From positions 8,455,001 to 8,519,000 of the forward strand of contig NZ_CP146350.1 in assembly GCF_037055355.1 (NCBI RefSeq): a stretch of 64,000 nucleotides of DNA, written 5' to 3'. The notes under the pieces are model-generated. The model was not told where the DNA came from. It made no database searches and was given only the letters and a program-made list of their open reading frames with translations. Each line of letters opens with the position of its first letter. Within the stretch, counting starts at the first letter, position 1. The position numbers were made by a program, and so were the translations under genes. The DNA comes from Streptomyces sp. DG1A-41 (GTDB lineage: Bacteria; Actinomycetota; Actinomycetes; Streptomycetales; Streptomycetaceae). Shown piece by piece: positions 33,881-49,778 of the stretch.

Positions 33881-34079
33881 CTACCTGCGCCGCCGCGCCC
33901 AGCCCGCGCTCACGGTCTGGACCTCGGCGGAGGCGGCAGCCTGGGAACGGGGCACCCTGACCGTGCCCGGCTCCCGCGTCGACCACTGGCCGGACAGTGG
34001 GCACTACCTGCACGAGGAGCACGCCGAGCGGACGATCCGGCTGCTGCGCGACTGGGCGGGCCGCGTCAGGCCAACGTGA
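33880..34079 (+). pseudogene. Alpha/beta hydrolase C-terminal relic
   Basis: From about 33880 the plus strand reads 'YLRRRAQPALTVWTSAEAAA', then 'VPGSRVDHWPDSGHYLHEEH' and 'IRLLRDWAGR' to a stop at 34079. The D-S-G-H-Y block fits the catalytic-His loop of alpha/beta hydrolases. The nucleophile and oxyanion parts are absent. Its 5' break coincides with that of the divergent decarboxylase relic, so a single deletion probably removed both 5' ends. Its last 14 bp overlap the P450 gene end. Confidence 0.65.
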
Positions 34080-35352
34080 CCTCGACCGGCAGCTTCTTGA
34101 TGCCGTTGACGAAGTTGGAGCGCACCCGCGGCACGTCGCCCGCCAGGCGGATGTCCGCCAGGCGTGGGATCAGTTCCTCGAACATGATGCGGATCTCGGT
34201 GCGCGCGAGCAGGTTGCCCAGGCACAGATGGGGGCTGCCCTTGCCGAAGGTGACGTGGTCGTTGTCCGCGCGGGCGACGTCGAAGTCGTACGGGTTGCCG
34301 AAGACCTCCTCGTCGCGGTTGCCGGAGGCGAACCACATCACGACCTTGTCGCCCTCCCTGATCCGCTTGCCGCCCAGTTCGACGTCGCGCGTGGCGGTAC
34401 GGCGGAAGTGGTAGACGGGGGAGGCCCAGCGCAGGAACTCCTCCACCGCGACCGGGATCAGGGAGGGGTCCTCCTGGAGGCGGGCCAGCTGTTCGGGGTG
34501 CTGGATGAGGGCCAGCATGGAGTGCGAGATGGTGTGGCGGGTCGTCTCGTTGCCGGCGACGACCAGGAGCAGGAAGTAGTTGTCGAAGTCCTGCGGGGAG
34601 AGCGGGACTCCGTCGCGGGGTGTGGTGTTGACCAGGCGGGAGACCAGGTCGGTGCCGTCGCCGCCGCGTCGCTGCCGCGCCAGTTCCCGTCCGTACTCGA
34701 AGACCTCCAGCGACGCGGGGGAGCGGAAGGGCAGGTCGCGGTACCGCTCGCTCTCCTCGCTGTGCAGCAGGACGTCCGCGTAGTCGGGATCGGTGTGGCC
34801 GATGATGCGGTTGCCCCAGTCGATGAGCTTCTGGTTGTCCTCCGGGGGGACGTCCAGCAGCCGGGCGAGGACGTTGATCGGGAAGTCCGCCGAGACGTCC
34901 GCCACGAAGTCGAGACGGCCCTTGGCGAGGGCGGCGTCGAGGGTCCGGGCGGTCAGGCCGCGCAGGAAGTCGGTGTAACCGCTGATCACGCTCGCGCCGA
35001 ACTGCCGCTGGATCAGGCTGCGCAGCGCCCGGTGCCGGACCCCGTCCAGTTCGAGGATGGAGGCGCGTTTCTTGATCTGGTCGTCGTCGACCTCTTCCAG
35101 GTTGACGAATTTCGTGGAGGTGAAGGTCTCGGAGTCGCGGTCGACCCGGACGATGTCCCGGTGCCGGGTCACCGCCCAGAAACCGGAGTTGGGCGCCTCC
35201 TCGGGCTGCCAGTGCACCGGGTCCTCGTGGCGCAGGGTGTGGAACATCCGCCAGGGTGTGACGCCGTCCGTGAAGCGGTCCAGGTCGGCGAGGTTCACGT
35301 CGGCCAGGGGCAGCGGCTCGCGCACGGCGTCGGGCAGGGTCTCGGTCGTCAT
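34066..35352 (-). CDS. Cytochrome P450 of the amine-catabolism cluster
   Basis: 428 aa from ATG 35352 (GAGGAG 7 nt upstream). I-helix 'VVAGNETTRHTIS' (AGxET, with the acid-alcohol pair Glu-Thr), K-helix ExxR in 'VEEFLRWASPV', heme-binding 'FGKGSPHLCLGNLLAR' with Cys377. The stretch before Cys is one residue longer than the common FGxGxHxC. It is a soluble bacterial class I P450 needing ferredoxin and reductase, both encoded divergently nearby. It lies 29 bp after the glutamine-synthetase-like gene, as P450 and GS-like genes also sit together in the mycobacterial piperidine/morpholine clusters. C-hydroxylation or N-dealkylation of an amine is inferred. Confidence 0.93.
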   Translation of the reverse strand: MTTETLPDAVREPLPLADVNLADLDRFTDGVTPWRMFHTLRHEDPVHWQPEEAPNSGFWAVTRHRDIVRVDRDSETFTSTKFVNLEEVDDDQIKKRASILELDGVRHRALRSLIQRQFGASVISGYTDFLRGLTARTLDAALAKGRLDFVADVSADFPINVLARLLDVPPEDNQKLIDWGNRIIGHTDPDYADVLLHSEESERYRDLPFRSPASLEVFEYGRELARQRRGGDGTDLVSRLVNTTPRDGVPLSPQDFDNYFLLLVVAGNETTRHTISHSMLALIQHPEQLARLQEDPSLIPVAVEEFLRWASPVYHFRRTATRDVELGGKRIREGDKVVMWFASGNRDEEVFGNPYDFDVARADNDHVTFGKGSPHLCLGNLLARTEIRIMFEELIPRLADIRLAGDVPRVRSNFVNGIKKLPVEVTLA

Positions 35353-35381
35353 CGGCAGGCTCCTCGGCGTCACGGGCGGTG

Positions 35382-36731
35382 TCACAGGTGGTAGGCGTAC
35401 TCGGTGAACTCCCAGTCGGTGACGTGCCGGTGGAAGCGTTCGACCTCGTCGCGCTTGTAGGAGAGGAAGGACGAGGTGAAGCCCTTGCCGAGCAGGTCGG
35501 TCAGGGCGGTGTCCGCCTCCAGCGCGTCCAGCGCTGCGGACAGGGTCTGCGGCAGGACGGCGGACCGGGCGGTGTCGTAGCCGTAGCCCTCCAGCGGCGC
35601 GGGCGGCTCCTCGCCGGCCAGGACGCCCAGCAGGGCGGCGGCCGTTGTCGCGGCGATCGCCAGATAGGGGTTGGCGCTCGCGTCGCCCAGCCGCAGTTCG
35701 AGCCGGGCGCCGGAGCCGCGCTCGGGCGGTATGCGCACCATGGCGCTGCGGTTGTCCAGCCCCCAGTCGATCAGCCAGGGCGCCAGGGTGTCCGGGCCGA
35801 AGCGTTTGTAGGAGTTGATCGTGGGGTTGAGCAGCGCGGCGAGGGCGGGCGCGTGGGCGAGGACACCGGCGACGGCGTGCCGGGCGGTCGCGGACAGGCC
35901 GTACGGGCCCGACGGGTCGTCGAAGGTGTTGCGGCCGTCCTCGTCGTCGCAGGACAGGTGGAGGTGGAAGCCGGAGCCGCCCGCGTCGTTGAAGGGCTTG
36001 GCCATGAAGGTGGCCAGGCGGCCCTCCTTGCGGGCCAGCTCCTTGATCGCGGCCTTGAAGCGGAAGGAGCGGTCCGCGGCCGAGACGGCGTCGGAGTGCG
36101 CCAGGTTGATCTCGATCTGGCCGCCGTCGAACTCGTGGTTGCCGCTGATGGCCCCGACCTTCAGATCGCGCACGTGGCGCAGGGTGCGCAGCAGGTGGTT
36201 GTCCGGGTCGGCCCGCAGGCCGGCGGTGTAGACGACCCCGGGGTCGGGAGCGTAGCGGCGCCAGCCGCCCGACGGGTCCGGGTCGCACAGGAAGTACTCG
36301 AGCTCGGGCCCGACGACGGGCCGCAGCCCGTGCTCGGCACACCGGGCGAGGATCGATCGCAGCAGGTCGCGGGGCGACTCGGGGGCCGGCGCGCCGGTCG
36401 CCGGGTCGACGACCTCCCCCAGACAGGCGGCCACCCCCGGCTCCCAGGGCAGCGGCACCAGCGTGTCGAGGTCCGGGCGGACACAGATGTCCGGCAGTCC
36501 CGCGTCCAGCCCGCCGCTGACCGGGACCACGTCGCCCTGCGGGCTGGTGTGGTAGACGGCCCGGCAGAACGCGAGACCGTGCTCACAGGCCCGGGGCAGC
36601 TCCTCCAGCAGCACGTCACGCGCCCGGTCGGTGCCGATGAGGTCGGGATAGGTCACCCGGACCACGTCGATGCCGTCGGCGGCGAGCCGCTCCATGTGGC
36701 GGCGGACTTCTGCAAGGTCGTGAGCGCTCAC
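35382..36731 (-). CDS. Glutamine-synthetase-family gamma-glutamyl-amine ligase
   Basis: 449 aa from GTG 36731, with GAGGAGA 5 nt before it. GS motifs: 'VRVTYPDLIGTDRARDVLLE', metal ligands in 'PVVGPELEYFL' and 'GGQIEINLAHSDAV', 'GSGFHLHLS', 'NPTINSYKRFGPDTLAPW', 'IRPPE'-like 'VRIPPERGSGARLELRL'. This is the PuuA/GlnA3/GlnA4-like branch that joins glutamate to amines other than ammonia using ATP; the adenylylation Tyr region of GlnA is not evident. The PuuC- and PuuD-like genes in the cluster support a gamma-glutamylated intermediate. The substrate amine is unknown. Confidence 0.9.
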   Translation of the reverse strand: MSAHDLAEVRRHMERLAADGIDVVRVTYPDLIGTDRARDVLLEELPRACEHGLAFCRAVYHTSPQGDVVPVSGGLDAGLPDICVRPDLDTLVPLPWEPGVAACLGEVVDPATGAPAPESPRDLLRSILARCAEHGLRPVVGPELEYFLCDPDPSGGWRRYAPDPGVVYTAGLRADPDNHLLRTLRHVRDLKVGAISGNHEFDGGQIEINLAHSDAVSAADRSFRFKAAIKELARKEGRLATFMAKPFNDAGGSGFHLHLSCDDEDGRNTFDDPSGPYGLSATARHAVAGVLAHAPALAALLNPTINSYKRFGPDTLAPWLIDWGLDNRSAMVRIPPERGSGARLELRLGDASANPYLAIAATTAAALLGVLAGEEPPAPLEGYGYDTARSAVLPQTLSAALDALEADTALTDLLGKGFTSSFLSYKRDEVERFHRHVTDWEFTEYAYHL

Positions 36732-36845
36732 CGTTGTCTCCTCGGGCGGACGTCGGGACACCTCCGGGACCAGGGGCGGGGGAGGCGGGTGGCGTGAGGA
36801 ACGAGCGGCCGGGCGCGGCGGAGCCAGGGACCGCCCGGGGGCTTT

Positions 36846-36859
36846 GTTTGACGCCAAAC
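36846..36859. promoter_or_regulatory. Cluster operator copy 1 (GS-like gene promoter)
   Basis: GTTTG-ACGC-CAAAC, 115 bp upstream of the GS-like start. Read on the other strand as CGTTTGGCGTCAAACA it matches the motif found before the other units of this cluster. Confidence 0.7.
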
Positions 36860-36951
36860 GTTAGGGGTGGGCGGGAGGTGCCGCAAGAGGGCGGGGCAAG
36901 AATTTATCCATCCGGATAGCTATTGACCAGACCACCGCCCCTGCCTACCTT

Positions 36952-36965
36952 GTTTGAAGCCAAAC
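36952..36965. promoter_or_regulatory. Cluster operator copy 2 (ferredoxin operon promoter)
   Basis: GTTTG-AAGC-CAAAC, about 106 bp before the ferredoxin start and 106 bp from copy 1. Both copies lie in the 339-bp divergent region (36732-37070), which otherwise holds an AT-rich stretch around 36900-36925 ('AATTTATCC', 'TAGCTATTGACC') likely to contain the promoters. Confidence 0.7.
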
Positions 36966-37070
36966 GAGTTCGGGGTGCGGTCTACCGCACCCCGTTGGCC
37001 GGGGCCCGGCCCTTTCCGGCCGGGCCCCTCTCATCCCGCTTCGACGCCCTCACATCCAGGAGGACCGGCC

Positions 37071-37259
37071 ATGAAGGTCGTCGTCGACATGAACCAGTGC
37101 CAGGACCACGGCCAGTGCGTCTTCGCGGCCCCCGACGTCTTCCAAATGGACGACGACGGCCGCCTGGCCTACGTCCCCGACCCCGACGACGCCCTGCGCG
37201 ACGAGGTCGAGGAGGCCGCGGACGTCTGCCCGCTCCAGGCCATCCGGATCGAGGACTGA
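37071..37259 (+). CDS. Small ferredoxin for the P450 (CxxHxxC type)
   Basis: 62 aa from ATG 37071 with AGGAGG upstream. Cluster ligands: 'NQCQDHGQCVFAAPDVF' (Cys-x2-His-x2-Cys) and a late 'VCPLQAI'. His takes the place of the second Cys of a standard 4Fe-4S motif, as in 3Fe-4S ferredoxins that serve actinobacterial P450s. It ends 1 bp before the reductase gene, so the electron chain NAD(P)H to reductase to ferredoxin to P450 is complete in this cluster. Confidence 0.93.
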   Translation: MKVVVDMNQCQDHGQCVFAAPDVFQMDDDGRLAYVPDPDDALRDEVEEAADVCPLQAIRIED

Positions 37260-37260
37260 C

Positions 37261-38457
37261 ATGCGCGGGCGCATCGTCGTCGCCGGCGCCTCCCTCGGCG
37301 GGCTCCGCGCTGCCGAGCAGCTGCGCGCCGCGGGCTGGACCGGCGGCATCACGGTGATCGGCGACGAGCCGCACCGGCCGTACAACCGGCCCCCGCTGTC
37401 CAAGGAGGTCCTCGCGGGCAAGGCGTCCTTCGCGTCGCTCGCCTTCACGCCGAAGGCGTCAGCGGCCGACGTGGAGTGGCGGCTGGGCACGAGGGTCACC
37501 GCGGTCCGGCTCGCCGAGCGGGCCGTCGAGATCCACGACGGCTCGGTGCTCTCCTATGACGGGCTAGTCGTCGCCACCGGGATGCGGCCCCGGCGGCTGC
37601 GCTGCCCCGGGCCGGTCGAGGGCCGTCACACGGTCCGGACGATCGACGACGCCCAGATCCTGCGGGGCGAGCTGACCCGGCCCGGGGTGCGGGTCGTCGT
37701 GGTCGGCGCCGGGTTCATCGGCTGCGAGGTCGCCGCGACGGCCGTCGGGCTCGGCGCGGCCGAGGTGACCGTCGTCGATCCGTTGCCGTTGCCGATGGTC
37801 GGGCCGCTCGGAGAGATGCTGGCGCGTGTGCTGCTCGCGCGGCACGAGGAGCGCGGGGTCTGCTTCGTGCTGGGGTCGGGCGTGACCGGATTCGAAGGGG
37901 ACGACCGCGTCACCGGTGTCGTGCTGAGCGACGGGTCCGTGCTTCCCGCTGATGTGGTGGTGGAGTCCGTGGGCTCGGTCGCCAACACCGAGTGGCTGGA
38001 CGGCAACGGGCTGGATCTGAGCGACGGGGCCCTCACCGATCGGCACCTGCGGGTCGGAGGCCGGCCGGAAGTCGTCGCGGTCGGCGATGTCGCCCGCTTC
38101 CCGAACGCCCGCTACGACGGTGTGCCGCGGCGGGTCGAGCACTGGTCCGTGCCGGCCGACTCGGCCAAGCACGCCGCGAAGGTGCTGGTCGGTGGGGACG
38201 CCGGCCTGGCGCCCTTCGCACCACTGCCCACTTTCTGGAGCGACCAGCACGACTTCCGGTTGCAGTCCTTCGGTGCGCCGGTCCTGGGGCTCGATGACAT
38301 CCGGGTCCTCGACGGTGACCCCTCAGGGGACGTGCTGGTCGGTTACCACCGCGACGGACGGCTGGTCGGTGTCGTCGCGCTCGGCGGGCCCTCCGCTGCC
38401 CGTGCCGCCGCCCGGTACCGCGCCGACCTGCTGAAGCAGCCCGCTCTCACCGCGTAA
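37261..38457 (+). CDS. FAD-dependent NAD(P)H-ferredoxin reductase
   Basis: 398 aa. FAD-binding 'RIVVAGASLGGLRAAEQLRA' at the N-terminus (GxSxGG in place of GxGxxG), 'PYNRPPLSKEVL' typical of Rhodococcus/Pseudomonas-type reductases, NAD-binding 'VVVVGAGFIGCEVAATAVGL' (about 145), and 'VVAVGDVARFPN' for the second FAD contact. It supplies electrons to the adjacent ferredoxin. It follows the ferredoxin by 1 bp and precedes the acetoacetate-decarboxylase-like gene by 11 bp. Confidence 0.93.
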   Translation: MRGRIVVAGASLGGLRAAEQLRAAGWTGGITVIGDEPHRPYNRPPLSKEVLAGKASFASLAFTPKASAADVEWRLGTRVTAVRLAERAVEIHDGSVLSYDGLVVATGMRPRRLRCPGPVEGRHTVRTIDDAQILRGELTRPGVRVVVVGAGFIGCEVAATAVGLGAAEVTVVDPLPLPMVGPLGEMLARVLLARHEERGVCFVLGSGVTGFEGDDRVTGVVLSDGSVLPADVVVESVGSVANTEWLDGNGLDLSDGALTDRHLRVGGRPEVVAVGDVARFPNARYDGVPRRVEHWSVPADSAKHAAKVLVGGDAGLAPFAPLPTFWSDQHDFRLQSFGAPVLGLDDIRVLDGDPSGDVLVGYHRDGRLVGVVALGGPSAARAAARYRADLLKQPALTA

Positions 38458-38468
38458 GGAGCCCTCGC

Positions 38469-39278
38469 GTGACCAGTCTTCGTGGTTACCTCCACCCCAA
38501 GACGGCGACCGGTGCGTCGTCGCTGATTCCCTCTCCGCCCTGGCGGTACTCCGGTGACCTGTTGACGGTCGAGTACCGGACGGACCCCGAGCGGGTGCGT
38601 GAACTGCTCCCCGAGCCGCTGGAGTTGGCCGACGAGGATCCCGGTGCGGTTGCTCTCATCTGGGCCGACTGGCAGTCGTGCTCGGCATCGGGGGAGGAGC
38701 TGCTGGATCCGGTGCGGGCGCAGTACAAGGAGGCGTTCGCGGTCGTCCGGTGCCGGTTCCGGGGGCGGACGTACTCTCGGTGCGTCTACATCTGGGTGGA
38801 CAAGGACTTCGCGATCGCGCGGGGGCTGCATCAGGGGTATCCGAAGAAGCTCGGCTCCATCCACCAGACGCGACCGCATCCGTACGGGCCCGCTCCGCGG
38901 ATCGAGTCCGGGGCGCGGTTCGGGGCGACGCTGGCGGCTGCGGACCGGCGTATCGCGCAGGCTGTGGTGACGCTGCGCGAGCCTTCTGAGAGCGGCGGGT
39001 TCGTCAATGCGCATCCCATGGCGCATCACCGGTGGCTGCCGTCGATCGAGGGCAAGGGGCTGGCTCTCGACGAGCTGATCGAGTCCGGGGCGGCTTCCTT
39101 CGAAGGAGGTCGACCGTGGGTTGGAGACGCGCAGTTGGAGCTGTTCGAGGCGCCGACCGAGGAATTGGCCCGGCTGGAGGTGCGGGAGCCGATCGCGGCG
39201 TACTACCGGCAGGTCGGGGTGGTCTGGGACGGGGGGCGGCTGCTGGAAGTCGGTACGTCGGAAGCGTCTGCCGAGTAG
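38469..39278 (+). CDS. Acetoacetate decarboxylase-family protein
   Basis: 269 aa from GTG 38469 (AAGGAG upstream). Family features are 'LLTVEYRTDPERVRELLPEP', 'VYIWVDKDFAIARG' and 'GYPKKLGSI', where a Lys would be the Schiff-base residue. In this superfamily some members decarboxylate beta-keto acids and others act as aldolase-dehydratases or hydratases, so it may process a keto acid from ring cleavage. It sits between the reductase and the semialdehyde dehydrogenase in one operon. Confidence 0.82.
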   Translation: MTSLRGYLHPKTATGASSLIPSPPWRYSGDLLTVEYRTDPERVRELLPEPLELADEDPGAVALIWADWQSCSASGEELLDPVRAQYKEAFAVVRCRFRGRTYSRCVYIWVDKDFAIARGLHQGYPKKLGSIHQTRPHPYGPAPRIESGARFGATLAAADRRIAQAVVTLREPSESGGFVNAHPMAHHRWLPSIEGKGLALDELIESGAASFEGGRPWVGDAQLELFEAPTEELARLEVREPIAAYYRQVGVVWDGGRLLEVGTSEASAE

Positions 39279-39374
39279 CGCCGGTAGGCGGATGCGGGTT
39301 CGTCGTGGTTGGTCGCGCAGTTCCCCGCGCCCCTAGGTGAGTGCGATTCTCCTCGTTTGAATGGAACTCTTCTC

Positions 39375-40838
39375 ATGCCTGACACCATCACCGTCGCCGG
39401 CGTTGCCGTCGACACCCGGCACTGGATCGGCGGTCTGCGCGTCGCCTCCGCCGATGCCTTCACCGACCACTCTCCGATCGACGCCAGCGTCCTCGGCGAG
39501 ATCGCCCGGGGCGGCCCAGTCGAAGCCGAGGCCGCCGTCGCCGCCGCCCGGGACGCCTTCCCCGCCTGGGCCGCCACCTCGCGCACCGAGCGCGCCCGCC
39601 TCCTGCACGCCATCGCCGACGGCGTCGAGAAGCGGATCGAGGAGCTGGCGATCGTCGAGACCACCGACAACGGTGCGCTGCTGCGGTCGCACCGGCGGGG
39701 CGTCATGCCCCGCGTCGCCCACAACTTCCGGTTCTTCGCCGACTGGTTGCTCCGGCTCGACCACGAGGACTTCGAGACGCGGGGGTACACCAACCACGTC
39801 AGCTGGGACCCGGCCGGGCCCTGCGTGCTGATCACGCCGTGGAACGCGCCCCTGATGCTGGCCACCTGGAAGGTCGCCCCCGCCCTCGCCGCCGGCAACA
39901 CCGTCGTCCTCAAGCCCGCCGAGTGGTCCCCGCTGACCGCTTCACTGCTGGCCGACATCGCGGCCGAGGCCGGGCTGCCGGCCGGTGTCCTCAACGTCGT
40001 CCAGGGATACGGCTCCGAGATCGGTGACGCCCTCACCTCCCACCCCGACGTGCGCCGCATCAGCTTCACGGGGTCGGTGCCCACGGCGCGGCGGATCGCT
40101 GCCTCGGCCGCCGCCAACCTCACGCCCCTGAGCCTCGAACTCGGCGGCAAGTCACCCCTTCTGGTCTTCGCCGACGCCGATCTCGACCTGGCCGTCGACC
40201 TCGCCGTGGAGCAGTACGACAACGCCGGGCAGGTGTGCCTCGCGGGCACCCGGCTGCTCGTCGAGGAGCCGGTCGCCGAGGAGTTCACCCGCCGGTTCGT
40301 GGAGAAGGCGTCCGCCCTCGCGCAAGGCGATCCCCGCGACGAGGCCACCGACATCGGGCCCACCATCCATCCCCGCCAGCTGGAGAAGATCGACGGTTTT
40401 GTGCAGCGGGCCGTCGCGGCCGGGGCGCGGGCGGTCATCGGGGGGCATCGCAAGGACGGGCAGTACTACGCGCCGACCCTGCTCACCGATGTCGCCCAGG
40501 ACTCCGAGATCGTGCAGGAGGAGGTCTTCGGGCCGGTACTGACCCTCCAGACCTTCGCCGGCGAGGACGAGGCCGTCCGGCTCGCCAACGACACCTGTTT
40601 CGGGCTGGCCGCCACCGTCGCCACCGGCGACCGCGAGCGCGCCGAGCGGGTCAGCGCCCGGCTCGTCGCGGGCACGGTCTGGATCAACTGCTTCTTCGTC
40701 CGCGACCTCCAGGCCCCGTTCGGCGGCTCCCGGCAGTCCGGTGTCGGACGCGAGGGCGGTACCTGGAGCTTCGACTTCTACTGCGACCTGAAGAACACCG
40801 TCACCGCCCCGAAGGGATGGAACCAGGACCATGGGTGA
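39375..40838 (+). CDS. Semialdehyde dehydrogenase (HpaE / hydroxymuconic semialdehyde type)
   Basis: 487 aa from ATG 39375. General base Glu in 'LELGGKSPLLVF', nucleophile Cys288 in 'NAGQVCLAGTRLLVEE', NAD-binding 'ITPWNAPLMLATWKVAPAL' and 'SFTGSVPTARRIA'. The end 'VWINCFFVRDLQAPFGGSRQ', then 'SGVGREGG', is characteristic of 5-carboxymethyl-2-hydroxymuconate semialdehyde and related dehydrogenases. It would oxidise the ring-cleavage aldehyde. The next gene starts inside it (8-bp overlap). A partial operator match (CGTTTG-AATGG-AAC, 39354-39367) is just upstream. Confidence 0.9.
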   Translation: MPDTITVAGVAVDTRHWIGGLRVASADAFTDHSPIDASVLGEIARGGPVEAEAAVAAARDAFPAWAATSRTERARLLHAIADGVEKRIEELAIVETTDNGALLRSHRRGVMPRVAHNFRFFADWLLRLDHEDFETRGYTNHVSWDPAGPCVLITPWNAPLMLATWKVAPALAAGNTVVLKPAEWSPLTASLLADIAAEAGLPAGVLNVVQGYGSEIGDALTSHPDVRRISFTGSVPTARRIAASAAANLTPLSLELGGKSPLLVFADADLDLAVDLAVEQYDNAGQVCLAGTRLLVEEPVAEEFTRRFVEKASALAQGDPRDEATDIGPTIHPRQLEKIDGFVQRAVAAGARAVIGGHRKDGQYYAPTLLTDVAQDSEIVQEEVFGPVLTLQTFAGEDEAVRLANDTCFGLAATVATGDRERAERVSARLVAGTVWINCFFVRDLQAPFGGSRQSGVGREGGTWSFDFYCDLKNTVTAPKGWNQDHG

Positions 40839-42589: not shown

Positions 42590-42644
42590 CGCGGGCTCCG
42601 GCCGCCGCGTCGCCGAGCGGGGCGCCCCGGGTAGGGTCACGGGC

Positions 42645-43247
42645 ATGACCGAGCCCGCCGGGCGCCGCCCCCGCAAGCGCGTGAACTACGGCACGGGCCG
42701 CGAGGCCCTGCTGGAGGCCGCCGTGCGCGTGGTGGCCCGGGGCGGGCTGCGCAGGCTCACCTACCGGGCGGTCGCGGAGGAGGCCGGCGTCACCCACGGG
42801 CTGGTCGTGCACCACTTCGGATCCCGTGACGCCCTGATCGAAGAGGCCCTCACCCACGCCATCCGGTCCTCCCTGAGCAGCAGCGCCCTGGAACCGGGCA
42901 CAGGCAGGGCCGCCGACTTCTCGGTGGGTCTGACGGACATGGTGGAGTCCGGTCCCGACCTCCAGGCGTTCCAGTACGAACTGCTGCTGGAGTCCCGGCG
43001 CCGCCCCGAGCTCCTGGCCCACCTGCGGTCGCTGTACGACGAGTACTTCGACGCGACCCGGCGCGAGCTCACCCAGATGCTGCCCGGCCCGGTGGACGAG
43101 GGCCTGTCCCGCATGGTCTTCGCCACGCTGGAGGGACTCGTCCTGCACCAGCTGGTCTTCGGCGAACGCGAGGTCATCGAGGACGCCCTCGACGAACTGC
43201 GCTCGGTGCTGCGGCTGCTCGCCGAGAAGCAGGACGGCGGGGCCTGA
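42645..43247 (+). CDS. TetR-family transcriptional regulator
   Basis: 200 aa from ATG 42645. The HTH spans 'ALLEAAVRVVARGGLRRLTY' and 'RAVAEEAGVTHGLVVHHFGS' (about 18-55). The C-terminal domain is helical. It is last in the ferredoxin-to-FAH gene string (55 bp gap) and ahead of the permease gene. It is one of three regulators in the cluster that could bind the shared operator; no operator copy lies directly before its own start. Confidence 0.92.
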   Translation: MTEPAGRRPRKRVNYGTGREALLEAAVRVVARGGLRRLTYRAVAEEAGVTHGLVVHHFGSRDALIEEALTHAIRSSLSSSALEPGTGRAADFSVGLTDMVESGPDLQAFQYELLLESRRRPELLAHLRSLYDEYFDATRRELTQMLPGPVDEGLSRMVFATLEGLVLHQLVFGEREVIEDALDELRSVLRLLAEKQDGGA

Positions 43248-43328
43248 CTCCGTCGGCCACGCGGCCCCGTAAATCGTAGTCCCTCACCCCTTGCCAAACG
43301 GATAGTTCCGTCCCACGATGAGGCAACT

Positions 43329-43344
43329 CGTTTGGCCTGAAACG
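43329..43344. promoter_or_regulatory. Cluster operator copy 3 (APC permease promoter)
   Basis: CGTTTGGCCTGAAACG, a 16-bp imperfect palindrome with CGTTT/AAACG arms, 29 bp before the permease start. It matches the other cluster copies. Confidence 0.7.
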
Positions 43345-43373
43345 ATCCTTCCTCCCCCTGGCAGGTGATCCGA

Positions 43374-44834
43374 GTGGACAGTCAGACGGTCTCCCGGCAC
43401 ACGGCGGCACCGGACGCGCCCACCGCAGGCACGCTCAAGCCCAACGCCCTCGGCGTACTGGGCATCCTCTTCTTCGTCCTGTCCGCCCAGGCCCCGCTGA
43501 CCGGTATCGCCGGCGCCGCCCCCATCGCCGTGGCGCTCGGCAACGGGCCCGGAGTGCCCGCCGCCTATCTGGTGGCGGGGTTGGTGATCCTGCTGTTCTC
43601 GGTGGGCTTCGTCGCCATGGGCCGCCACGTCGTGGACGCGGGCGCCTTCTACACCTACATCGGCAAGGGCCTCGGCCGGACCACCGGCACCGGCAGCGCG
43701 GGCCTCGCGCTCTTCGCGTACTGCACCATCCAGGCCGCCATGTACGGGCTCTACGGATCCATCGTGAGCGGACTGGTCGCGAGCCACGCAGGCCTCGACC
43801 TGCCGTGGTGGGTCTGGACACTGGCCACCATGGCGGTGGTGCAGGCGCTCGGTGCGGCCGGCGTCGAGATGGGCGCCAAGGTGCTGGCCGTCCTCGTCCT
43901 GGCGGAGTTCAGCATCCTGTCGGTCTTCGCCCTGGTCACCCTCGTCAAGGGCGGCGGACCCGAGGGGCTCGGCCTCGCCGACAGCTTCTCCCCGGCCGCC
44001 GCCCTGGACGGCGCTCCGGGCGTGGCCGTGATGTTCGCCGTGGCGTCCATGTTCGGCTTCGAGGCCACCGCCATCTACGGCGAGGAGGCCCGCGAGCCCA
44101 GGAAGACCGTGCCGAGGGCCACGTACCTCGCGGTGGTCGTGGTCACCGGCTTCTTCGCCCTGACCTCCTGGATGCTCATCTCCTCCTACGGCGCCTCCCG
44201 GGCCACCGCGGCCGCGGGCCAGGCCCTGGAGGGCGGTGACGGGGCCGGGTTCGTCTTCGCGCCCATCACCGCGCAGTTCGGCGGCTGGGTCGGCGATGTG
44301 CTGCCGGTCCTGCTCGCCACGTCCCTCTTCGCCGGCATCCTCACCTTCCACAACTCGGCCAACCGCTACCTGTTCTCCCTCGGACGCGACCGCCTGCTGC
44401 CGCTGCGGCTGTGCCGGCTCAACCGCCGTCACGCCCCCTGGGCGGCCGGGTGCGTCCAGACGGTCCTGGCCGTGCTGCTGGTGGTGCCCTTCGCGCTGGC
44501 GGGCAAGGACCCGGTGCTGACGCTGTTCTCCTGGTTCAGCGGGGTCGCCGTCCTGGCGATGATGCTGCTGTACCTGCTGACCTCGGTGTCCGTCGTCGCT
44601 TTCTTCCGCCGCGAGCGGCTCGACGCCCACCCCTGGAACACGCTCATCGCTCCCGTCCTGGGCGCGCTCGGCATCGCGGGGGCGATCTGGCTCATCCTGG
44701 CCAACTTCACCACCCTCATCGGCGGCGAACGCGCCACCGCTCTGTGGCTCACGCTGTCCGTCCCGGTGGTCATGGCGCTGGGCATCGTCGCCGCACGGGT
44801 GCGGGGGAGGGCCCTCGCAGCCGCCGACGGGTGA
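43374..44834 (+). CDS. APC-superfamily amino acid/amine permease
   Basis: 486 aa from GTG 43374, since AGGTGA lies 5 nt upstream; GTG 43365 is an alternative. About twelve membrane helices, the first with the APC signature region 'VLGILFFVLSAQAPLTGIAG' and later 'MFGFEATAIYGEEAREPRKT', the conserved APC helix 6/loop. It imports amino acids, polyamines or other amines (PuuP belongs here). Followed by the PuuC- and PuuD-like genes, it is the likely entry route of the cluster's substrate. Confidence 0.92.
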   Translation: MDSQTVSRHTAAPDAPTAGTLKPNALGVLGILFFVLSAQAPLTGIAGAAPIAVALGNGPGVPAAYLVAGLVILLFSVGFVAMGRHVVDAGAFYTYIGKGLGRTTGTGSAGLALFAYCTIQAAMYGLYGSIVSGLVASHAGLDLPWWVWTLATMAVVQALGAAGVEMGAKVLAVLVLAEFSILSVFALVTLVKGGGPEGLGLADSFSPAAALDGAPGVAVMFAVASMFGFEATAIYGEEAREPRKTVPRATYLAVVVVTGFFALTSWMLISSYGASRATAAAGQALEGGDGAGFVFAPITAQFGGWVGDVLPVLLATSLFAGILTFHNSANRYLFSLGRDRLLPLRLCRLNRRHAPWAAGCVQTVLAVLLVVPFALAGKDPVLTLFSWFSGVAVLAMMLLYLLTSVSVVAFFRRERLDAHPWNTLIAPVLGALGIAGAIWLILANFTTLIGGERATALWLTLSVPVVMALGIVAARVRGRALAAADG

Positions 44835-44872
44835 CCGCGCGCGCCGTCGTCCGCGGACAGCCGTACCCATTT

Positions 44873-44887
44873 CGTTTGAGATCAAAG
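44873..44887. promoter_or_regulatory. Cluster operator copy 4 (PuuC-like gene)
   Basis: CGTTTGAGATCAAAG contains the perfect 12-bp palindrome TTTGAGATCAAA (44875-44886), a typical MarR-type half-site arrangement. It overlaps the Shine-Dalgarno region (AAAGGAGG) of the dehydrogenase, so binding would block the promoter or elongation. Confidence 0.65.
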
Positions 44888-44897
44888 GAGGCCCTCC

Positions 44898-46388
44898 ATG
44901 CCGGCCGTCACCCACGACGAGTGGCTGCGCCGCGCCAAGGCGTTCCAGCTCTCCGGCGCCCACCACATCGCCGGCGCCGACGAGCCCGGAAGCGGGGCGA
45001 CGTTCCCGGTCGTGTCACCGCGTGACGGCCGGGTCCTCGCCGAGGTCCCGGACGCGGGCACCGCCGAGGTGGACGCGGCCGTCGCCGCCGCCCGGCGGGC
45101 CTTCGACACCGGCCCGTGGCCGCGTCTGGCACCCGCCGAGCGCGGCCGGGCCCTGCTCCGCCTCGCCGACCTGCTCGAAAAGCGGCGCGAGGAACTGGCG
45201 TTGACCGTGAGCCTGGAGATGGGCAAACCGGTCACGGACGCCCACGGCATCGAACTGCGCGCCGTCATCAGCACCTTCCGCTGGTACGGGCAGCTCGCGG
45301 ACAAGCTCACCGACTCCGCCCCGCACACCGCCCCGGACGCCCTCGCCCTGGTCACCCGGGAACCCGCCGGAGTGGTCGCGGCGGTCGTCCCCTGGAACTT
45401 CCCGCTGACCCTGGCCGGCTGGAAGATCGCCCCGGCACTGGCCGCGGGCTGCACGGTCGTGCTGAAGCCCTCGGAGAACTCCCCGCTGTCCGCCCTGCTC
45501 CTGGGCCGCCTCGCCACCGAGGCCGGAATCCCGCCCGGCGTGCTCAACGTCGTCACCGGCGACGGCCCCACCGCGGGCCGGGCCCTCGGTCTCCACCCCG
45601 GCGTCGACGTCCTGGCGTTCACCGGCTCCACCGCCGTCGGACGCCACTTCCTGCGCTACGCCGCCGATTCCAACCTCAAGCGCGTCTGGCTGGAACTCGG
45701 CGGCAAGTCGCCCAACATCGTCCTGCCCGACGCCCCCGACCTGGATCAGGCCGCCGCCACGGCCGCCTGGGGCGTCTTCTTCAACCAGGGCGAGATGTGC
45801 ACGGCGCCTTCGCGGCTGCTCGTGCACTCCTCGATCGCCGAGCGGATCACCGAGGCCGTGGTCCGGCGGGCCCGGGAGCTGAAGGTGGGCGACCCTCTCG
45901 ACCCGGAGACGGAGATGGGCGCGCTGGCCGGCCGGGCACACCTGGACCGCGTACGCGACCACGTCCGTCATGGCGTCGAGGAGGGCGCCCGGCTGCGCAC
46001 CGGCGGCGAGCGCCTGCTCGCCGAGACGGGCGGGACGTATCTGGAGCCGACCGTCTTCGACCGCGTGCACCCCGGCTCGCGACTGGCCCGGGAGGAGATC
46101 TTCGGCCCCGTCCTGTCCGTGCTCGCCTTCGACGACCTCGACGAGGCGGTTCGCCTGGCCAACGCCACCGAGTACGGCCTCGCAGCCGGCCTGTGGACCT
46201 CCGACCTGTCCACCGCCCACCGGGTCTCCCGCGCGCTGAAGGCCGGGACGGTGTGGGTGAACTGCTACGAGGAGGGCGACCTGACCGTGCCCTTCGGCGG
46301 CATGAAGCAGTCGGGCAACGGACGTGACAAGTCCGTCCACGCGCTGGAGAAGTACACCGAGCTCAAGACCACCTGGATCCAGTTGTGA
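44898..46388 (+). CDS. Aldehyde dehydrogenase, PuuC-like (gamma-glutamyl-aminoaldehyde type)
   Basis: 496 aa, with AAAGGAGG before the ATG. NAD-binding 'VVPWNFPLTLAGWKIAPALA' and 'AFTGSTAVGRHFLRYAADSN', general base in 'WLELGGKSPNIVL', nucleophile Cys301 in 'NQGEMCTAPSRLLV'. The C-terminal 'VWVNCYEEGDLTVPFGGMKQ', then 'SGNGRDKS', closely resembles E. coli PuuC, which oxidises gamma-glutamyl-gamma-aminobutyraldehyde. It overlaps the PuuD-like gene by 4 bp. Confidence 0.92.
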   Translation: MPAVTHDEWLRRAKAFQLSGAHHIAGADEPGSGATFPVVSPRDGRVLAEVPDAGTAEVDAAVAAARRAFDTGPWPRLAPAERGRALLRLADLLEKRREELALTVSLEMGKPVTDAHGIELRAVISTFRWYGQLADKLTDSAPHTAPDALALVTREPAGVVAAVVPWNFPLTLAGWKIAPALAAGCTVVLKPSENSPLSALLLGRLATEAGIPPGVLNVVTGDGPTAGRALGLHPGVDVLAFTGSTAVGRHFLRYAADSNLKRVWLELGGKSPNIVLPDAPDLDQAAATAAWGVFFNQGEMCTAPSRLLVHSSIAERITEAVVRRARELKVGDPLDPETEMGALAGRAHLDRVRDHVRHGVEEGARLRTGGERLLAETGGTYLEPTVFDRVHPGSRLAREEIFGPVLSVLAFDDLDEAVRLANATEYGLAAGLWTSDLSTAHRVSRALKAGTVWVNCYEEGDLTVPFGGMKQSGNGRDKSVHALEKYTELKTTWIQL

Positions 46389-47077
46389 GGCCCCTGATCG
46401 CGATCCCCGCCCGGTTCTCCGCGCGGACCTCCGCCCTCCGCTACGCCGCCGAGGTCAACGCCCGCGCCCTCATCGAGGCCGTCTGGCGGGCCGGCGGCGA
46501 ACCGGCGGGCATCCACCCGGCGGACAGCGGCACCGCGGCCCGCCTCGCCCGCTTCGACGGCGTCCTGCTCCCCGGCGGCGGCGACCTCGCCCCCTCCTGC
46601 TACGGCGCCGTCGACACCCATGACACCGTCTACGACGTCGACACCCTCCAGGACACCTTCGACCTCGACGTCGCCCGCCACGCCCTGGAGTCCGGCCTGC
46701 CCCTGCTCGCGGTCTGCCGCGGCCTCCAGGTCGTCAACGTGGCCCTCGGCGGCACCCTGGAGCAGGACATGGGCGGCCCGGAACGCGAGCACCGGCACCT
46801 CGTGCACCCCGTCATCCTGGAATCCGGCTCGGTCGTCGCCCGGTCCACCGGCGACGAGAAGACCGACGCGTCCTGTTATCACCACCAACGCGTCGACCGC
46901 CTGGGCACAGACCTCCGCGTCACGGCCCGGGCGGCGGACGGCACCGTCGAGGCCCTCGAACTCGCGGGCGCCAAGGGCTGGTTCACCGCCGTCCAGTGGC
47001 ACCCGGAGGACACCGCCCACGAGGACCCCGCCCAACAGGGCCTGTTCGACGCACTCGTCCGGGCCGCGGCCCGGTGA
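46385..47077 (+). CDS. Gamma-glutamyl amide hydrolase, peptidase C26 (PuuD-like)
   Basis: 230 aa, GTG start in a 4-bp overlap. It has a class I glutamine-amidotransferase fold: 'GVLLPGGGDLAPSCYG', nucleophile Cys111 in 'LLAVCRGLQVVNVALGG', and catalytic His-Glu in 'TAVQWHPEDTAHEDP'. PuuD releases glutamate from gamma-glutamyl products, undoing the ligation made by PuuA-type enzymes. Its presence beside PuuC-like and GS-like genes is the main argument for a gamma-glutamylated pathway. Confidence 0.92.
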   Translation: MRPLIAIPARFSARTSALRYAAEVNARALIEAVWRAGGEPAGIHPADSGTAARLARFDGVLLPGGGDLAPSCYGAVDTHDTVYDVDTLQDTFDLDVARHALESGLPLLAVCRGLQVVNVALGGTLEQDMGGPEREHRHLVHPVILESGSVVARSTGDEKTDASCYHHQRVDRLGTDLRVTARAADGTVEALELAGAKGWFTAVQWHPEDTAHEDPAQQGLFDALVRAAAR

Positions 47078-47091
47078 GGCCGCCGCGGGAG

Positions 47092-47664
47092 TCAGGCCCG
47101 GGGCCGCCGTCCGCTGCGCCGTGGCGCGGGCTCGGCGCCGCCCAGCAGGGACTGCCGCCGCTCCTCGCCGTGCTCCTCGACCTGGAGCACCACACTGCGC
47201 AGCCCCTCGGCGAGGGTGCGGCACTCCGCGTCGCTGAGCCGGGCCGTCACGAACGCCTCCTCCTCGTTGAACGCCGGGAAGACCCGCCGCATGAACGCGT
47301 CGCCCTCCTCGGTGAGGCTCAGCAGCACCAGCCGCCCGTCGCTCGGATGGTCCGCCCGCCGCAACAGCCCCCGCGACTCCAGCGTGCGCGCCACACCCGT
47401 CAGCGTGCCCTTGGAGATCCCCGCCTCCTCCGCCACGTGCCGGGTCTCCGACTCGCCCCACACCCAGACCACCCACAGCACCACGAAGGCCGTCCAGGTC
47501 AGGTCCGAACCGCGCAGCACCGAGTTCTCCAGGTGCTGCCGCACTGCGGACGCGGCCCGGTAGATGTTCGCCACCGCCGCCATCTGCTCCCGGCGGATGG
47601 GAAAACCGCCGAGCTTCGCCGCTGCGAGCTTCTCGGCTTCGGTGATGGATCGGTGGCCCGGCAC
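47092..47664 (-). CDS. MarR-family transcriptional regulator
   Basis: 190 aa from GTG 47664, where GAAGGAG is 6 nt upstream; the longer open frame would give a His/Pro-rich leader. Winged-helix MarR core: 'LTWTAFVVLWVVWVWGESET', 'VAEEAGISKGTLTGVARTLE' (recognition helix), and the wing 'RADHPSDGRLVLLSLTEEGD'. It is divergent from the LLM gene with a cluster-motif copy between them. MarR proteins often bind TTTGA-N2-TCAAA-like palindromes and sense phenolic ligands, so this is my first candidate for the cluster regulator. Confidence 0.9.
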   Translation of the reverse strand: MPGHRSITEAEKLAAAKLGGFPIRREQMAAVANIYRAASAVRQHLENSVLRGSDLTWTAFVVLWVVWVWGESETRHVAEEAGISKGTLTGVARTLESRGLLRRADHPSDGRLVLLSLTEEGDAFMRRVFPAFNEEEAFVTARLSDAECRTLAEGLRSVVLQVEEHGEERRQSLLGGAEPAPRRSGRRPRA

Positions 47665-47756
47665 GGGCGGCTCCTTCGTCTGGTCGCGACGCGTCACGCC
47701 CGGGCGGTGATGCGCGGGCGGTCGCGCTGAGTGCGCGGCCATCCTCGCCGTCCGGT

Positions 47757-47771
47757 CGTTCGGACTCAAAT
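47757..47771. promoter_or_regulatory. Cluster operator copy 5 (MarR/LLM intergenic)
   Basis: CGTTCGGACTCAAAT matches the motif at most positions (T to C at one arm position). It lies between the divergent MarR and LLM starts, 28 bp before the LLM start and about 95 bp from the MarR start. Confidence 0.5.
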
Positions 47772-47798
47772 CGTACGGAGATGGAAGGGAAACCCGAC

Positions 47799-48740
47799 AT
47801 GCCCACCCCTCCCCGCATGCTTCTCGTCCTCAGCGAGAACTGGACGCTGACCGGCGGCCGGGCCGATCTGCCCGCCGCCGTCCGCTGGGCCCGCGAGGCC
47901 GAGGACGCCGGCTTCGACGCGGTCATGGTCAGCGAGCACATCGTCCTCGGCCCCGACGCGGCTGCCGCCGGCATCATGGGCAACCCCCGCGACTACGCCC
48001 TCCCGGGCAACCAGGACCCGTACACCCCCTGGCCCAACTCCCTGCTGCTGCTCGCCGCCATCGCCTCCGTCACCTCCCGGCTGCGCCTGGCCGCCGCGGC
48101 CGTCCTCGCCCCGCTGCGCCACCCCCTGCTGCTCGCGCGCGAGCTCGGCACCCTCGACCTGATCAGCGAGGGGCGCCTCGTCGTGCAGCCGACGGTGAGC
48201 TGGAGCAAGGACGAGTACGACGCCCTCGGCGTGCCCTTCGCCCGGCGGGGGCGGCTCCTCGACGAGCACCTGGAGATCTGGGCGAAGGCCTGGGGCCCGT
48301 CCCCGATCTCCCACGACGGACAGCACTACCCCTTCCAGGACGTCTGGTTCGAGCCCAAGGCCCACCGCCCGGACGGCCCCCGGCTCTGGTTCGGCGGACA
48401 GCGGCTGCACGGCCCCATCCTGCGCCGCCTCGTGCGGTACGGCCACGGCTTCCACCCGCTCGGCCGGCCCTCGCCCGAGGACCTCCAGGCGCTCAAGGAG
48501 GCGATGGCCGCGGCAGGGCGGGACATTGCGGACCTGGAGATGATCGGCGGCACCCGGGCCGTCTTCCCCGACGACCGCTCACCGGCCGACCTCGGCGCGG
48601 CGCTCGCCGTGCTCCCGGAGCAACTGGAGCAGGGCTTCACCACCTTCTGTGTCAAGCCGAACCAGTTCATCGACGATCCCGACGGGGTCGGGGCGTTCTG
48701 CCGGGACGTCATGCGGCGCGTCGAGGCGCTGACCTCCTGA
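47799..48740 (+). CDS. LLM-class flavin/F420-dependent oxidoreductase
   Basis: 313 aa from ATG 47799 (GGAAGGGA 8 nt upstream). Bacterial-luciferase-like barrel: 'ARE-AEDAGFDAVMVSEHIV' region near residue 35, 'LRLAAAAVLAPLRHPLLLAR', 'LDLISEGRLVVQPTVSW', 'YDALGVPFARRGRLLDE', 'LWFGGQRLHGPILRRLVRYG'. Such enzymes are monooxygenases using reduced flavin, or F420-dependent oxidoreductases. The operator copy in front of it ties it to the catabolic cluster. The substrate is unknown. Confidence 0.88.
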   Translation: MPTPPRMLLVLSENWTLTGGRADLPAAVRWAREAEDAGFDAVMVSEHIVLGPDAAAAGIMGNPRDYALPGNQDPYTPWPNSLLLLAAIASVTSRLRLAAAAVLAPLRHPLLLARELGTLDLISEGRLVVQPTVSWSKDEYDALGVPFARRGRLLDEHLEIWAKAWGPSPISHDGQHYPFQDVWFEPKAHRPDGPRLWFGGQRLHGPILRRLVRYGHGFHPLGRPSPEDLQALKEAMAAAGRDIADLEMIGGTRAVFPDDRSPADLGAALAVLPEQLEQGFTTFCVKPNQFIDDPDGVGAFCRDVMRRVEALTS

Positions 48741-48755
48741 CCGCCGTGGCCCGGA

Positions 48756-49778
48756 TCACCGCTCGACGAACCGTCCCAGGTGATCCGGGTCCGGCCGCAG
48801 CAGCCCGTCCCGGACCGCGAGCGCCGTGGCCTGCGCGCGGGAGGCGCAGCCGGTCTTGCGCAGCAGATGCTCGACATGGCTGTGCACCGTCCGCGGGGAC
48901 AGGAACAGCGCTTGTGCGATGGCCTGGTTGGTCTGCCCGGTGGCCGCCCGGGTGAGCACTTCCAGCTCCCGGGGGCTCAGCCCGTACGGCAGCTCCGTGG
49001 GCGTCTCGTGCACCAGCACCGCGTCGGACGCGAGGCCGGGTCCCGCCGGGTGCCGGTGCAGTACGACCCGCCGCCAGTCGCCGCCGGTCGGCCACAGCAG
49101 GCGCAGCCGCCGGCCGCCCGAGCCGGTGAAGGCGTCGAGCAGCGCGCGGAAGCCGCCTTCCTCTCGCAGCACCCGCGGCCGGTCGCGGCCCGGCAGGTCG
49201 ATCACCCCGCCGTCGCCGGTGACCAGGCTCGCCGCGTCCTGAGCTGCCAGACCGTGCAGGTCACCGGCGTGGGCCAGCGGGTCGGCGAGCGCGGCCAGGG
49301 CGGGCATGACGGAGGCGAGGAGCCGGCGGGCGTCGGTGTCGTAGGCGTCCGCGCTCTCGGTGGAGAGGTGGACCAGGCCCACCAGCCGGCTCCGGTGCCG
49401 CAGTGCTCCCGTGACGCCGTCCCGGAAACCGGCCGGGCGGACCCGCTCGGCGTAGAACCAGCCGTGCCGGAAGCGCGGCCCGGCGTCCTCGGCGTCCTCG
49501 GAGATGGAGGGTGGCAGCTCCCGCCGTACGACGTTGCGGTACCACGGCGTCGCGACGAACTCACCGGCCAGGGACTGCGAGGCCGCGGCGGTGTAACCGA
49601 TGCTCGCGACCTGGACGTGGGAGCCGGTCAGCGGGTCGATCGTGAGCAGGGTGGCCGCGTCCAGCGGCAGGGCGCGGGCGAGTTCGCGCAGGGCCTGCGC
49701 GGAGGCCGACGTGGTGTCGCGCTCGCGGGTGAGCATGCCGATGCGCGCTGCTGCCGCGATCTGGTGGTGGCTGGGCAT
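48756..49778 (-). CDS. GAF-type sensor regulator with LuxR HTH
   Basis: 340 aa. The N-terminal two thirds look like a GAF-like ligand-sensing domain ('LPLDAATLLTIDPLTGSHVQ', 'GVTGALRHRSRLVGLVHLST'). The C-terminal LuxR HTH is 'LSPRELEVLTRAATGQTNQA', then 'IAQALFLSPRTVHSHVEHLL' (about 270-320). There is no receiver domain. A cluster-motif copy lies 32 bp before its start, so it is itself under the same control. Confidence 0.88.
   Translation of the reverse strand: MPSHHQIAAAARIGMLTRERDTTSASAQALRELARALPLDAATLLTIDPLTGSHVQVASIGYTAAASQSLAGEFVATPWYRNVVRRELPPSISEDAEDAGPRFRHGWFYAERVRPAGFRDGVTGALRHRSRLVGLVHLSTESADAYDTDARRLLASVMPALAALADPLAHAGDLHGLAAQDAASLVTGDGGVIDLPGRDRPRVLREEGGFRALLDAFTGSGGRRLRLLWPTGGDWRRVVLHRHPAGPGLASDAVLVHETPTELPYGLSPRELEVLTRAATGQTNQAIAQALFLSPRTVHSHVEHLLRKTGCASRAQATALAVRDGLLRPDPDHLGRFVER

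Follow-up and report, generated by a model that had tools for sequence, protein, structure and literature searches.

The window analyzed here, a 64,000-nucleotide stretch from Streptomyces sp. DG1A-41 (bases 8455001-8519000 of an 8.99-Mb genome in one contig), carries a cluster of genes for gamma-glutamylation, cytochrome P450 oxidation, and extradiol ring cleavage, which probably form one regulon that uses a phenethylamine-type amine, most likely tyramine, as a source of carbon and nitrogen. The reactions and substrate are predicted from gene content, conservation, exchanges between variants, a shared operator, and the alignment of a key lysine. A wider proposition, toward which we lean only slightly, is that this is a widespread, undescribed actinobacterial route from tyramine, dopamine or L-DOPA to gamma-aminobutyrate (GABA), in which the nitrogen would stay gamma-glutamylated throughout, a protein of the acetoacetate decarboxylase (ADC) type would serve as hydratase-aldolase, and a P450, a decarboxylase or both would be interchangeable front ends (for tyramine, L-DOPA and tyrosine, respectively) on a conserved core. 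The locus combines known kinds of enzyme in a new way, and its logic is coherent and testable. A previous sequence-only reading of this DNA had recognized an amine-catabolic cluster joining the same three activities, with tyramine- or dopamine-like candidate substrates, and that outline is supported. Calling of open reading frames (ORFs) together with Pfam and NCBIfam family searches recovered every gene it had named, in the order and on the strands described (window coordinates):

34066..35352 (ends approximate), minus strand: P450, CYP125/CYP124-like (PF00067), proposed ring 3-hydroxylase of gamma-glutamyl-tyramine
35382..36731 (ends approximate), minus strand: glutamine synthetase (GS)-like ligase (PF00120), proposed gamma-glutamyl-tyramine synthetase
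37071..37259, plus strand: ferredoxin (Fd), P450 redox partner (PF13370/PF13459)
37261..38457, plus strand: ferredoxin reductase (FdR; PF07992, PF14759)
38469..39278, plus strand: ADC-superfamily (ADC-like) protein (PF06314), proposed hydratase-aldolase replacing HpaH/HpaI
39309..40838 (true start possibly 39375), plus strand: HpaE-like semialdehyde dehydrogenase (TIGR02299)
40831..41751, plus strand: LigB-type extradiol dioxygenase (PF02900)
41744..42589, plus strand: FAA-family isomerase/decarboxylase, HpaG-like (PF01557)
42645..43247, plus strand: TetR-family regulator (PF00440, PF17940)
43365..44834, plus strand: APC-family permease, proposed amine importer (PF00324/PF13520)
44898..46388, plus strand: PuuC-like aldehyde dehydrogenase (best NCBIfam model PuuC), proposed gamma-glutamyl-4-aminobutanal dehydrogenase
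46385..47077, plus strand: PuuD-like class-I glutamine-amidotransferase-type hydrolase (PF07722), proposed gamma-glutamyl-GABA hydrolase
47092..47769, minus strand: MarR-family regulator (PF01047)

The HpaE-like and LigB genes overlap by a few bases, as do those for the PuuC-like and PuuD-like proteins, which is typical of operon genes.

The cluster is a genuine unit and no chance neighborhood, because 61 of the 69 related loci of at least 19 kb, a figure that describes the closest-relative set only, hold all eleven of the P450, GS, Fd, FdR, ADC, HpaE, LigB, FAA, APC, PuuC, and PuuD genes. A search of named genomes with the LigB protein found 247 relatives, the nearest of them in Streptomyces, and the best 80 were used, several of these loci being cut by contig ends. 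Genes were counted by tblastn, since codon-bias gene calling picked wrong frames in several stretches, giving P450 in 69, GS in 73, Fd and FdR in 76 each, ADC in 79, HpaE in all 80, FAA in 79, TetR in 71, APC in 69, PuuC and PuuD in 70 each, and MarR in 42. The one locus lacking the ADC-like gene is a 4.2-kb contig. The long loci short of the full eleven are L017, L037, L040, L051, L056, L060, L077, and L082. The sequence-only reading had named separation of its two halves in relatives among the outcomes that would count against it, and both halves are found in these same 61 long loci. Within the genus, LigB is present in 72/295 sampled genomes, seven of which carry a 57-60% identical paralogue outside such clusters; leaving out the paralogue-only genomes gives 65/295, with neighborhoods read for a minority of those 65.

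A shared palindrome, GTTTGN4CAAAC, links genes of both halves. It occurs as two exact copies 106 bp apart in the divergent GS/Fd region, for which the expectation is a mean of 0.00 over 100 shuffles of the window, and as two one-mismatch copies farther downstream:

36846..36859, no strand: operator GTTTGACGCCAAAC, exact, GS/Fd divergent region
36952..36965, no strand: operator GTTTGAAGCCAAAC, exact, GS/Fd divergent region
43329..43342, no strand: operator GTTTGGCCTGAAAC, one mismatch, upstream of the APC permease gene
44873..44886, no strand: operator GTTTGAGATCAAAG, one mismatch, upstream of the PuuC-like gene

When up to one mismatch is allowed in the 160 bp preceding each gene of the relatives, the motif lies before GS in 68/72, Fd in 74/76, APC in 65/69, and PuuC in 31/70 loci. 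The PuuC copies are exact in seven relatives (L012, L019, L052, L059, L062, L067, and L076) and have one mismatch in 24 more, and the other 39 of the 70 have none within one mismatch. It also precedes HpaE in 3/79 (L040, L060, and L086, which carry a decarboxylase as described below) and MarR in 2/42 (L040 and L086). With the same threshold it was not found upstream of FdR (0/76), ADC (0/79), LigB (0/80), FAA (0/79), TetR (0/71), or PuuD (0/70), and 45 of 2000 random 170-bp stretches of the same loci match, true sites included. The motif is kept alike in loci with and without the TetR gene. Because this predicted operator stands before genes of both halves, they look like one regulon in Streptomyces, and co-expression is predicted.

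The proposed route follows from a simple substitution in the hpa pathway, which has an extradiol dioxygenase, a semialdehyde dehydrogenase, and an FAA-family isomerase/decarboxylase, and in which homoprotocatechuate is cleaved, oxidized, decarboxylated, hydrated, and split by a retro-aldol reaction to pyruvate and succinate semialdehyde, with the CH2COOH side chain ending up in the aldehyde product. If that side chain is replaced by CH2CH2NH-gamma-glutamyl, then on chemical grounds the same steps would end in the PuuC substrate. Such a substitution would explain why hpa-like and puu-like gene sets coexist, why PuuB is absent, and why one family of relatives has an aminotransferase. The amine would be imported by the APC permease and converted by the GS-like ligase to gamma-glutamyl-tyramine, which would keep the nitrogen from cyclizing with later carbonyls; free-amine ring-cleavage products and aminobutanal would be expected to cyclize, which on chemical reasoning accounts for the glutamylation. 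Ring hydroxylation by the P450 with its ferredoxin and reductase would give gamma-glutamyl-dopamine, whose catechol would be opened by the LigB protein next to the hydroxyls with the side chain still glutamylated. The HpaE-like enzyme would then oxidize the semialdehyde, and the FAA protein would isomerize and decarboxylate the product to 7-(gamma-glutamylamino)-2-oxohept-3-enoate. Hydration and retro-aldol cleavage by the ADC-like protein, through a lysine Schiff base, would yield pyruvate and 4-(gamma-glutamylamino)butanal, which the PuuC-like enzyme would oxidize to gamma-glutamyl-GABA, and the PuuD-like enzyme would release GABA and glutamate. A GABA aminotransferase scoring over its curated cut-off is encoded elsewhere in the same genome (6652606). 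The genome also has six matches to pyridoxal phosphate (PLP)-dependent decarboxylases, none of them inside the window, so this version of the cluster would depend on tyramine that is imported ready-made or supplied by another decarboxylase.

The assignment of the ADC-like protein as a hydratase-aldolase would explain why HpaI is absent. The sequence-only reading had noted that no HpaI equivalent lies in the window, and there is no match to TIGR02311 even in the whole genome; elsewhere, this model matches weakly in 4/13 genomes (one of the 13 is no LigB carrier), with none over the cut-off, and no control genome exceeds it either, so that the search has no strong positive control. The ADC-like protein scores 179.7 bits against TIGR04460 (MppR; cut-off 380) and resembles both MppR (PDB 4jm3) and Sbi00515 (6eej/4zbo) over most of its length. 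In the alignment, its Lys126 falls at the position of Lys156 in 4jm3 and Lys122 in 6eej (chain numbering), which are presumably the catalytic Schiff-base lysines. Sbi00515 is reportedly an aldolase-dehydratase, and the reverse of its reaction is the step needed here. The window protein thus shares similar sequence and the Schiff-base lysine position with these superfamily members and differs from them in its proposed catabolic role. The only precedent we met for an ADC-type protein in a meta pathway is in Saccharolobus (Sulfolobus) solfataricus, where, according to excerpts of PMC7820114, two ADC-like proteins are strongly induced on phenol and Sso1221/1222 are proposed as meta-pathway aldolases on the strength of MppR, a role that is itself a proposal.

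The GS-like protein matches the NCBIfam models gln_synth_III, GlnA, GGputSyn, and PRK09469, and in an alignment with L001, the top-scoring GS protein of the same genome, the window protein lacks both the DGSS motif and the flap Glu, as do its counterparts in L040 and in the other-class locus L124. DGSS is the ammonium-site motif of glutamine synthetase, and the absence of both features fits a predicted acceptor that is an amine and not ammonia. The best solved relatives of the P450 are CYP125MRCA (409 bits), CYP124 (267 bits), and CYP125A1 (226 bits). The HpaE-like protein scores 528 bits against TIGR02299 (cut-off 638), LigB 127 bits against TIGR02298 HpaD (cut-off 316), the FAA protein 200.9 bits against HpaG-C-term (cut-off 276), and the PuuC-like protein 562 bits against its best NCBIfam model, PuuC (cut-off 850). 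PuuD is the sole NCBIfam match of the PuuD-like protein at E <= 1e-10 (68.8 bits; cut-off 266), and the MarR regulator scores 43.9 bits against the HpaR model (cut-off 121).

These scores bear on the order of events in the sequence-only reading, in which glutamylation was followed by P450 oxidation in place of PuuB, PuuC and PuuD freed the acid, and free homoprotocatechuate was then cleaved. The presence of HpaD-, HpaE-, and HpaG-like genes fits that order, as do the weak similarity of MarR to HpaR and the fact that the named public relatives of LigB, among those listed, are mostly called 3,4-dihydroxyphenylacetate 2,3-dioxygenase. However, a monoamine acylated on its only nitrogen has no second amine, so on chemical grounds that order leaves PuuC without an aldehyde; moreover, LigB falls far below the HpaD cut-off, the FAA protein falls below that of HpaG, the genome has no HpaI match, and two related loci (L040 and L060) retain PuuC and PuuD yet have no P450 in about 20.9 kb. 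We therefore consider the earlier order highly improbable, and homoprotocatechuate is not favored as the ring-cleavage substrate. The observation that a PuuB-type oxidase is missing does hold among the called cluster ORFs in Pfam and NCBIfam scans, no dedicated search of the window or genome with a PuuB model having been made. In the route that we prefer, PuuB is not needed, since cleavage with the glutamylated side chain attached would let the retro-aldol step yield the PuuC substrate directly.

Variants of the cluster help to define its entry point. Six Streptomyces loci (L040, L060, L086, L180, L185, and L188) encode a PLP decarboxylase but lack a P450 over the stretch that was read, and in L040, L060, and L086 the P450, Fd, and FdR genes are all missing in reach and the decarboxylase gene lies between FAA and ADC. 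MarR homologues 64-66% identical to that of the window adjoin HpaE in these three clusters. In the Streptomyces variants the decarboxylase would take over from the P450 set, making L-DOPA the starting compound and dopamine the amine that is glutamylated; the P450 would be dispensable because decarboxylated L-DOPA would need no ring hydroxylase. The L060 decarboxylase has TIGR03811 (tyrosine decarboxylase) as its best NCBIfam model (127.7 bits; cut-off 905), and the solved structures that match it best are 5hsi, 6ebn, and 7cwx, of which 5hsi and 7cwx are presumably bacterial tyrosine decarboxylases. In a LigB tree of 86 rows out of 133 LigB proteins, the six loci fall at three separate places, two nested among P450-type loci, and because of this scatter it seems that different front ends have been swapped onto one shared core. 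Two further candidate decarboxylase carriers, L076 and L183, were labeled on 28-29% matches and are counted in the tree as lacking the decarboxylase.

Related loci also occur in other actinobacterial classes. In a phylum-wide sample LigB is present in 37/396 genomes, comprising that of the window itself, two others from its genus, and 34 from outside its class, and stretches were obtained from 30 of these 34, many cut by contig ends and some not. Among the 30 stretches we found HpaE in 24, FAA in 17, ADC in 16, GS in 15, a PLP decarboxylase in 12, MarR in 11, a class III GABA-aminotransferase-like gene in 9, a gene resembling succinate semialdehyde dehydrogenase (SSADH) in 8, and a second, GMP-synthase-like glutamine amidotransferase (GAT) in 6. 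A P450 of at least 38% identity is present in 14 (41-52% identical to that of the window), with three more at 27-28%, and APC matches are weak (13/30; 24-30% identity). Fd, FdR, and TetR were each found in 0/30. In 20 control stretches from the same genome set, ADC, HpaE, APC, decarboxylase, aminotransferase, SSADH-like, and GAT genes were all absent (0/20 each), and FAA, FdR, P450, and PuuD were found once each, GS and MarR twice, and PuuC three times.

The P450 and decarboxylase occur together in 8/30 other-class loci, as expected for a route starting from tyrosine. One such locus, L124, holds within 19.4 kb genes for SSADH-like, aminotransferase, decarboxylase, LigB, ADC, FAA, HpaE, GS, P450, GAT, and PuuC proteins. 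Its decarboxylase shares only 30% identity with the L060 enzyme, and the best solved matches include 4obu, tyrosine decarboxylase 6eei, and DOPA decarboxylase 7xin; the solved structures nearest to its aminotransferase are PuuE/GabT GABA aminotransferases.

Decarboxylases and aminotransferase also help to weigh a different substrate for the same enzymology, with the P450 demethylating an ether or hydroxylating some other aryl-alkylamine (3-methoxytyramine, octopamine, phenethylamine, or benzylamine giving beta-alanine). The P450 substrate is not readable from sequence, and a second P450 and ferredoxin inside the cluster in 12/80 relatives suggest oxygenases that widen the substrate range. However, the decarboxylases, tyrosine-like in Streptomyces and tyrosine/DOPA-like in L124, point to arylethylamines derived from amino acids, and a side chain of two carbons is suggested by the GABA-aminotransferase-like gene found in one family. 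A different amine is thus unlikely, and tyramine remains our preferred substrate.

Several observations weigh against the proposed route and its extension to other classes. All of the NCBIfam matches quoted for the window pathway proteins are below curated cut-offs, and the solved relatives of the P450 hydroxylate sterols and lipids and are not known to act on phenols. PuuC and PuuD are found near LigB in only 4/30 and 5/30 other-class loci, respectively, and neither is in reach in the Streptomyces-set loci L017, L037, L051, L077, and L082. The exact operator is present in 1/30 other-class loci (L132, just upstream of its ADC gene). Two controls, L156 and L167, come from contigs that bear clusters and are the source of both GS and two of the three PuuC control matches, so the control counts are inflated. 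The best NCBIfam model for the L124 decarboxylase is RhbB, a diaminobutyrate decarboxylase, and the decarboxylase families include diaminobutyrate and glutamate decarboxylases as well; that for the L124 aminotransferase is a generic aminotransferase. All nine GABA-aminotransferase-like cases are in one genome family (f16) and so are not independent, and this gene is matched only weakly in Streptomyces loci (1/80 and 2/20, at 30-31% identity). Among the six decarboxylase-type loci, just one, L040, has the complete remaining set: the GS of L060 is a fragment that covers only residues 33-222 of 439, the contig of L086 ends within ADC, before PuuC is reached, neither GS nor ADC is seen in the 14.9 kb of L180, and in L185 and L188 PuuD is not seen and no PuuC match exceeds 45% identity.

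Some of these gaps, namely the missing PuuC and PuuD near the ring-cleavage operons of L017, L037, and L082 and the state of L185 and L188, would fit two independent systems under a common regulator, with GS, APC, PuuC, and PuuD for polyamine catabolism beside an aromatic ring-cleavage operon that has its own P450; the halves can also lie apart in other classes. Against this, GS adjoins the P450 and not PuuC/PuuD, the shared operator precedes both halves, the halves are found together in the great majority of long loci, decarboxylase-type L040 unites GS, LigB, ADC, PuuC, and PuuD, and no PuuB is seen among the called cluster genes. We regard two separate systems as rather improbable and retain a single regulon for an arylethylamine.

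The proposed pathway has partial parallels in known systems. It shares with the Escherichia coli Puu pathway (PuuA/PuuC/PuuD/PuuP) a GS-like ligase, a permease, a PuuC-like dehydrogenase, and a PuuD-like hydrolase, as homologues below equivalog cut-offs, and the last two intermediates, gamma-glutamyl-4-aminobutanal and gamma-glutamyl-GABA, are proposed to be common to both; whereas the Puu aldehyde arises by PuuB oxidation of a second amine, that of the window route would arise by ring cleavage and retro-aldol reaction. With hpa it shares three enzyme kinds and overlapping substrates, although the window HpaD-, HpaE-, and HpaG-like proteins all fall below curated cut-offs. In the known route from tyramine and dopamine through hpa the amine is deaminated first and HpaH/HpaI act last, whereas the window route would keep the nitrogen to the end and use an ADC-superfamily protein in place of HpaH/HpaI. 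The nearest known route is the 3,4-dihydroxyphenylacetate catabolon of Pseudomonas putida U for tyramine and dopamine, as cited in PMC10606097. The GS-like enzymes AtdA1 (aniline) and NpaA1 (1-naphthylamine), of the GoaS family, glutamylate aromatic amines before ring oxidation; there, according to excerpts of PMC11335346, the nitrogen is borne on the ring and a dioxygenase makes a dihydroxy-aromatic from the glutamylated compound. In the window route, the glutamate tag would sit on an alkyl amine and persist until after ring opening, with a P450 as the oxygenase. The window GS matches the solved structure 8wwu, which we take to be NpaA1, with 144.6 bits, lower than 19 other GS-family sequences. 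The mycobacterial piperidine/morpholine systems (pipA, morA) resemble the window in using a P450, ferredoxin, and reductase, and the numbering of a Gulosibacter glutamine synthetase gene (GMOLON4_438/3052) puts it beside P450 genes; these systems act on cyclic amines, and neither a ring-cleavage dioxygenase nor an FAA or ADC-like gene is mentioned in the excerpts of PMC9477822.

Judging by titles and the opening lines of abstracts, we found no description of gamma-glutamylated tyramine or dopamine catabolism with ring cleavage in the open-licence PubMed Central literature, which is weak evidence of novelty, as most subscription papers and all bioRxiv preprints lie outside it. If correct, the route would represent a different logic of catecholamine breakdown, in which the nitrogen is protected, ring opening takes place while the side chain is still attached, and GABA is reached, instead of deamination coming first. 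It would provide a catabolic function for a branch of the ADC superfamily and a function for the LigB gene of those 65 genomes, as well as enzymes acting on conjugates of tyramine, dopamine or L-DOPA. Tyramine amides are produced by plants, e.g. suberin-linked feruloyl-tyramine (PMC7981814).

The span given by the sequence-only reading, 34066..49778, holds up as far as PuuD or MarR, where the unit most likely ends, because the last two genes of that span seldom follow PuuD in relatives (10/80 and 9/80 close behind it, respectively, some loci being cut short):

47781-48740: LLM oxidoreductase, last-but-one gene of that span
48756-49778: LuxR, last gene of that span

Beyond these, window positions 49923-55303 encode the binding protein, ATPase, and permease of a sugar-type ABC transporter and then an Amidohydro_3 amidohydrolase. 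A minority of the relatives have homologues of some of these genes close to the cluster, inverted in some cases (L044, L056, L071, and L072). These genes could free amines from amides.

The second P450 and ferredoxin of the 12 relatives lie between the TetR and permease genes (one read; L013:12639-14081 and equivalents). The L013 protein matches PDB 8q5j (named P450 107B1) with 877 bits over 397/398 residues, and a solved structure of nearly this P450 therefore exists. The GAT gene recurs in 16/80 Streptomyces-set loci as well as in the six from other classes (L040:5225-5920; L124:17183-17893), and its product may be an alternative gamma-glutamyl hydrolase.

Finally, the seven Streptomyces loci with the 57-60% LigB paralogue (L169-L175) were rejected as cluster members, their sole partner match being one 28% P450. 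The paralogue sits at about 9.4-9.9 kb in each, and the two that were read, L171 and L175, place it in a different gene set, arguing against membership; its neighbors, judged by eye, are an HpaB-type hydroxylase, a flavin reductase, an asparagine synthase, a TauD-like dioxygenase, and a quinone oxidoreductase. This set may be a biosynthetic cluster that uses a catechol such as DOPA.

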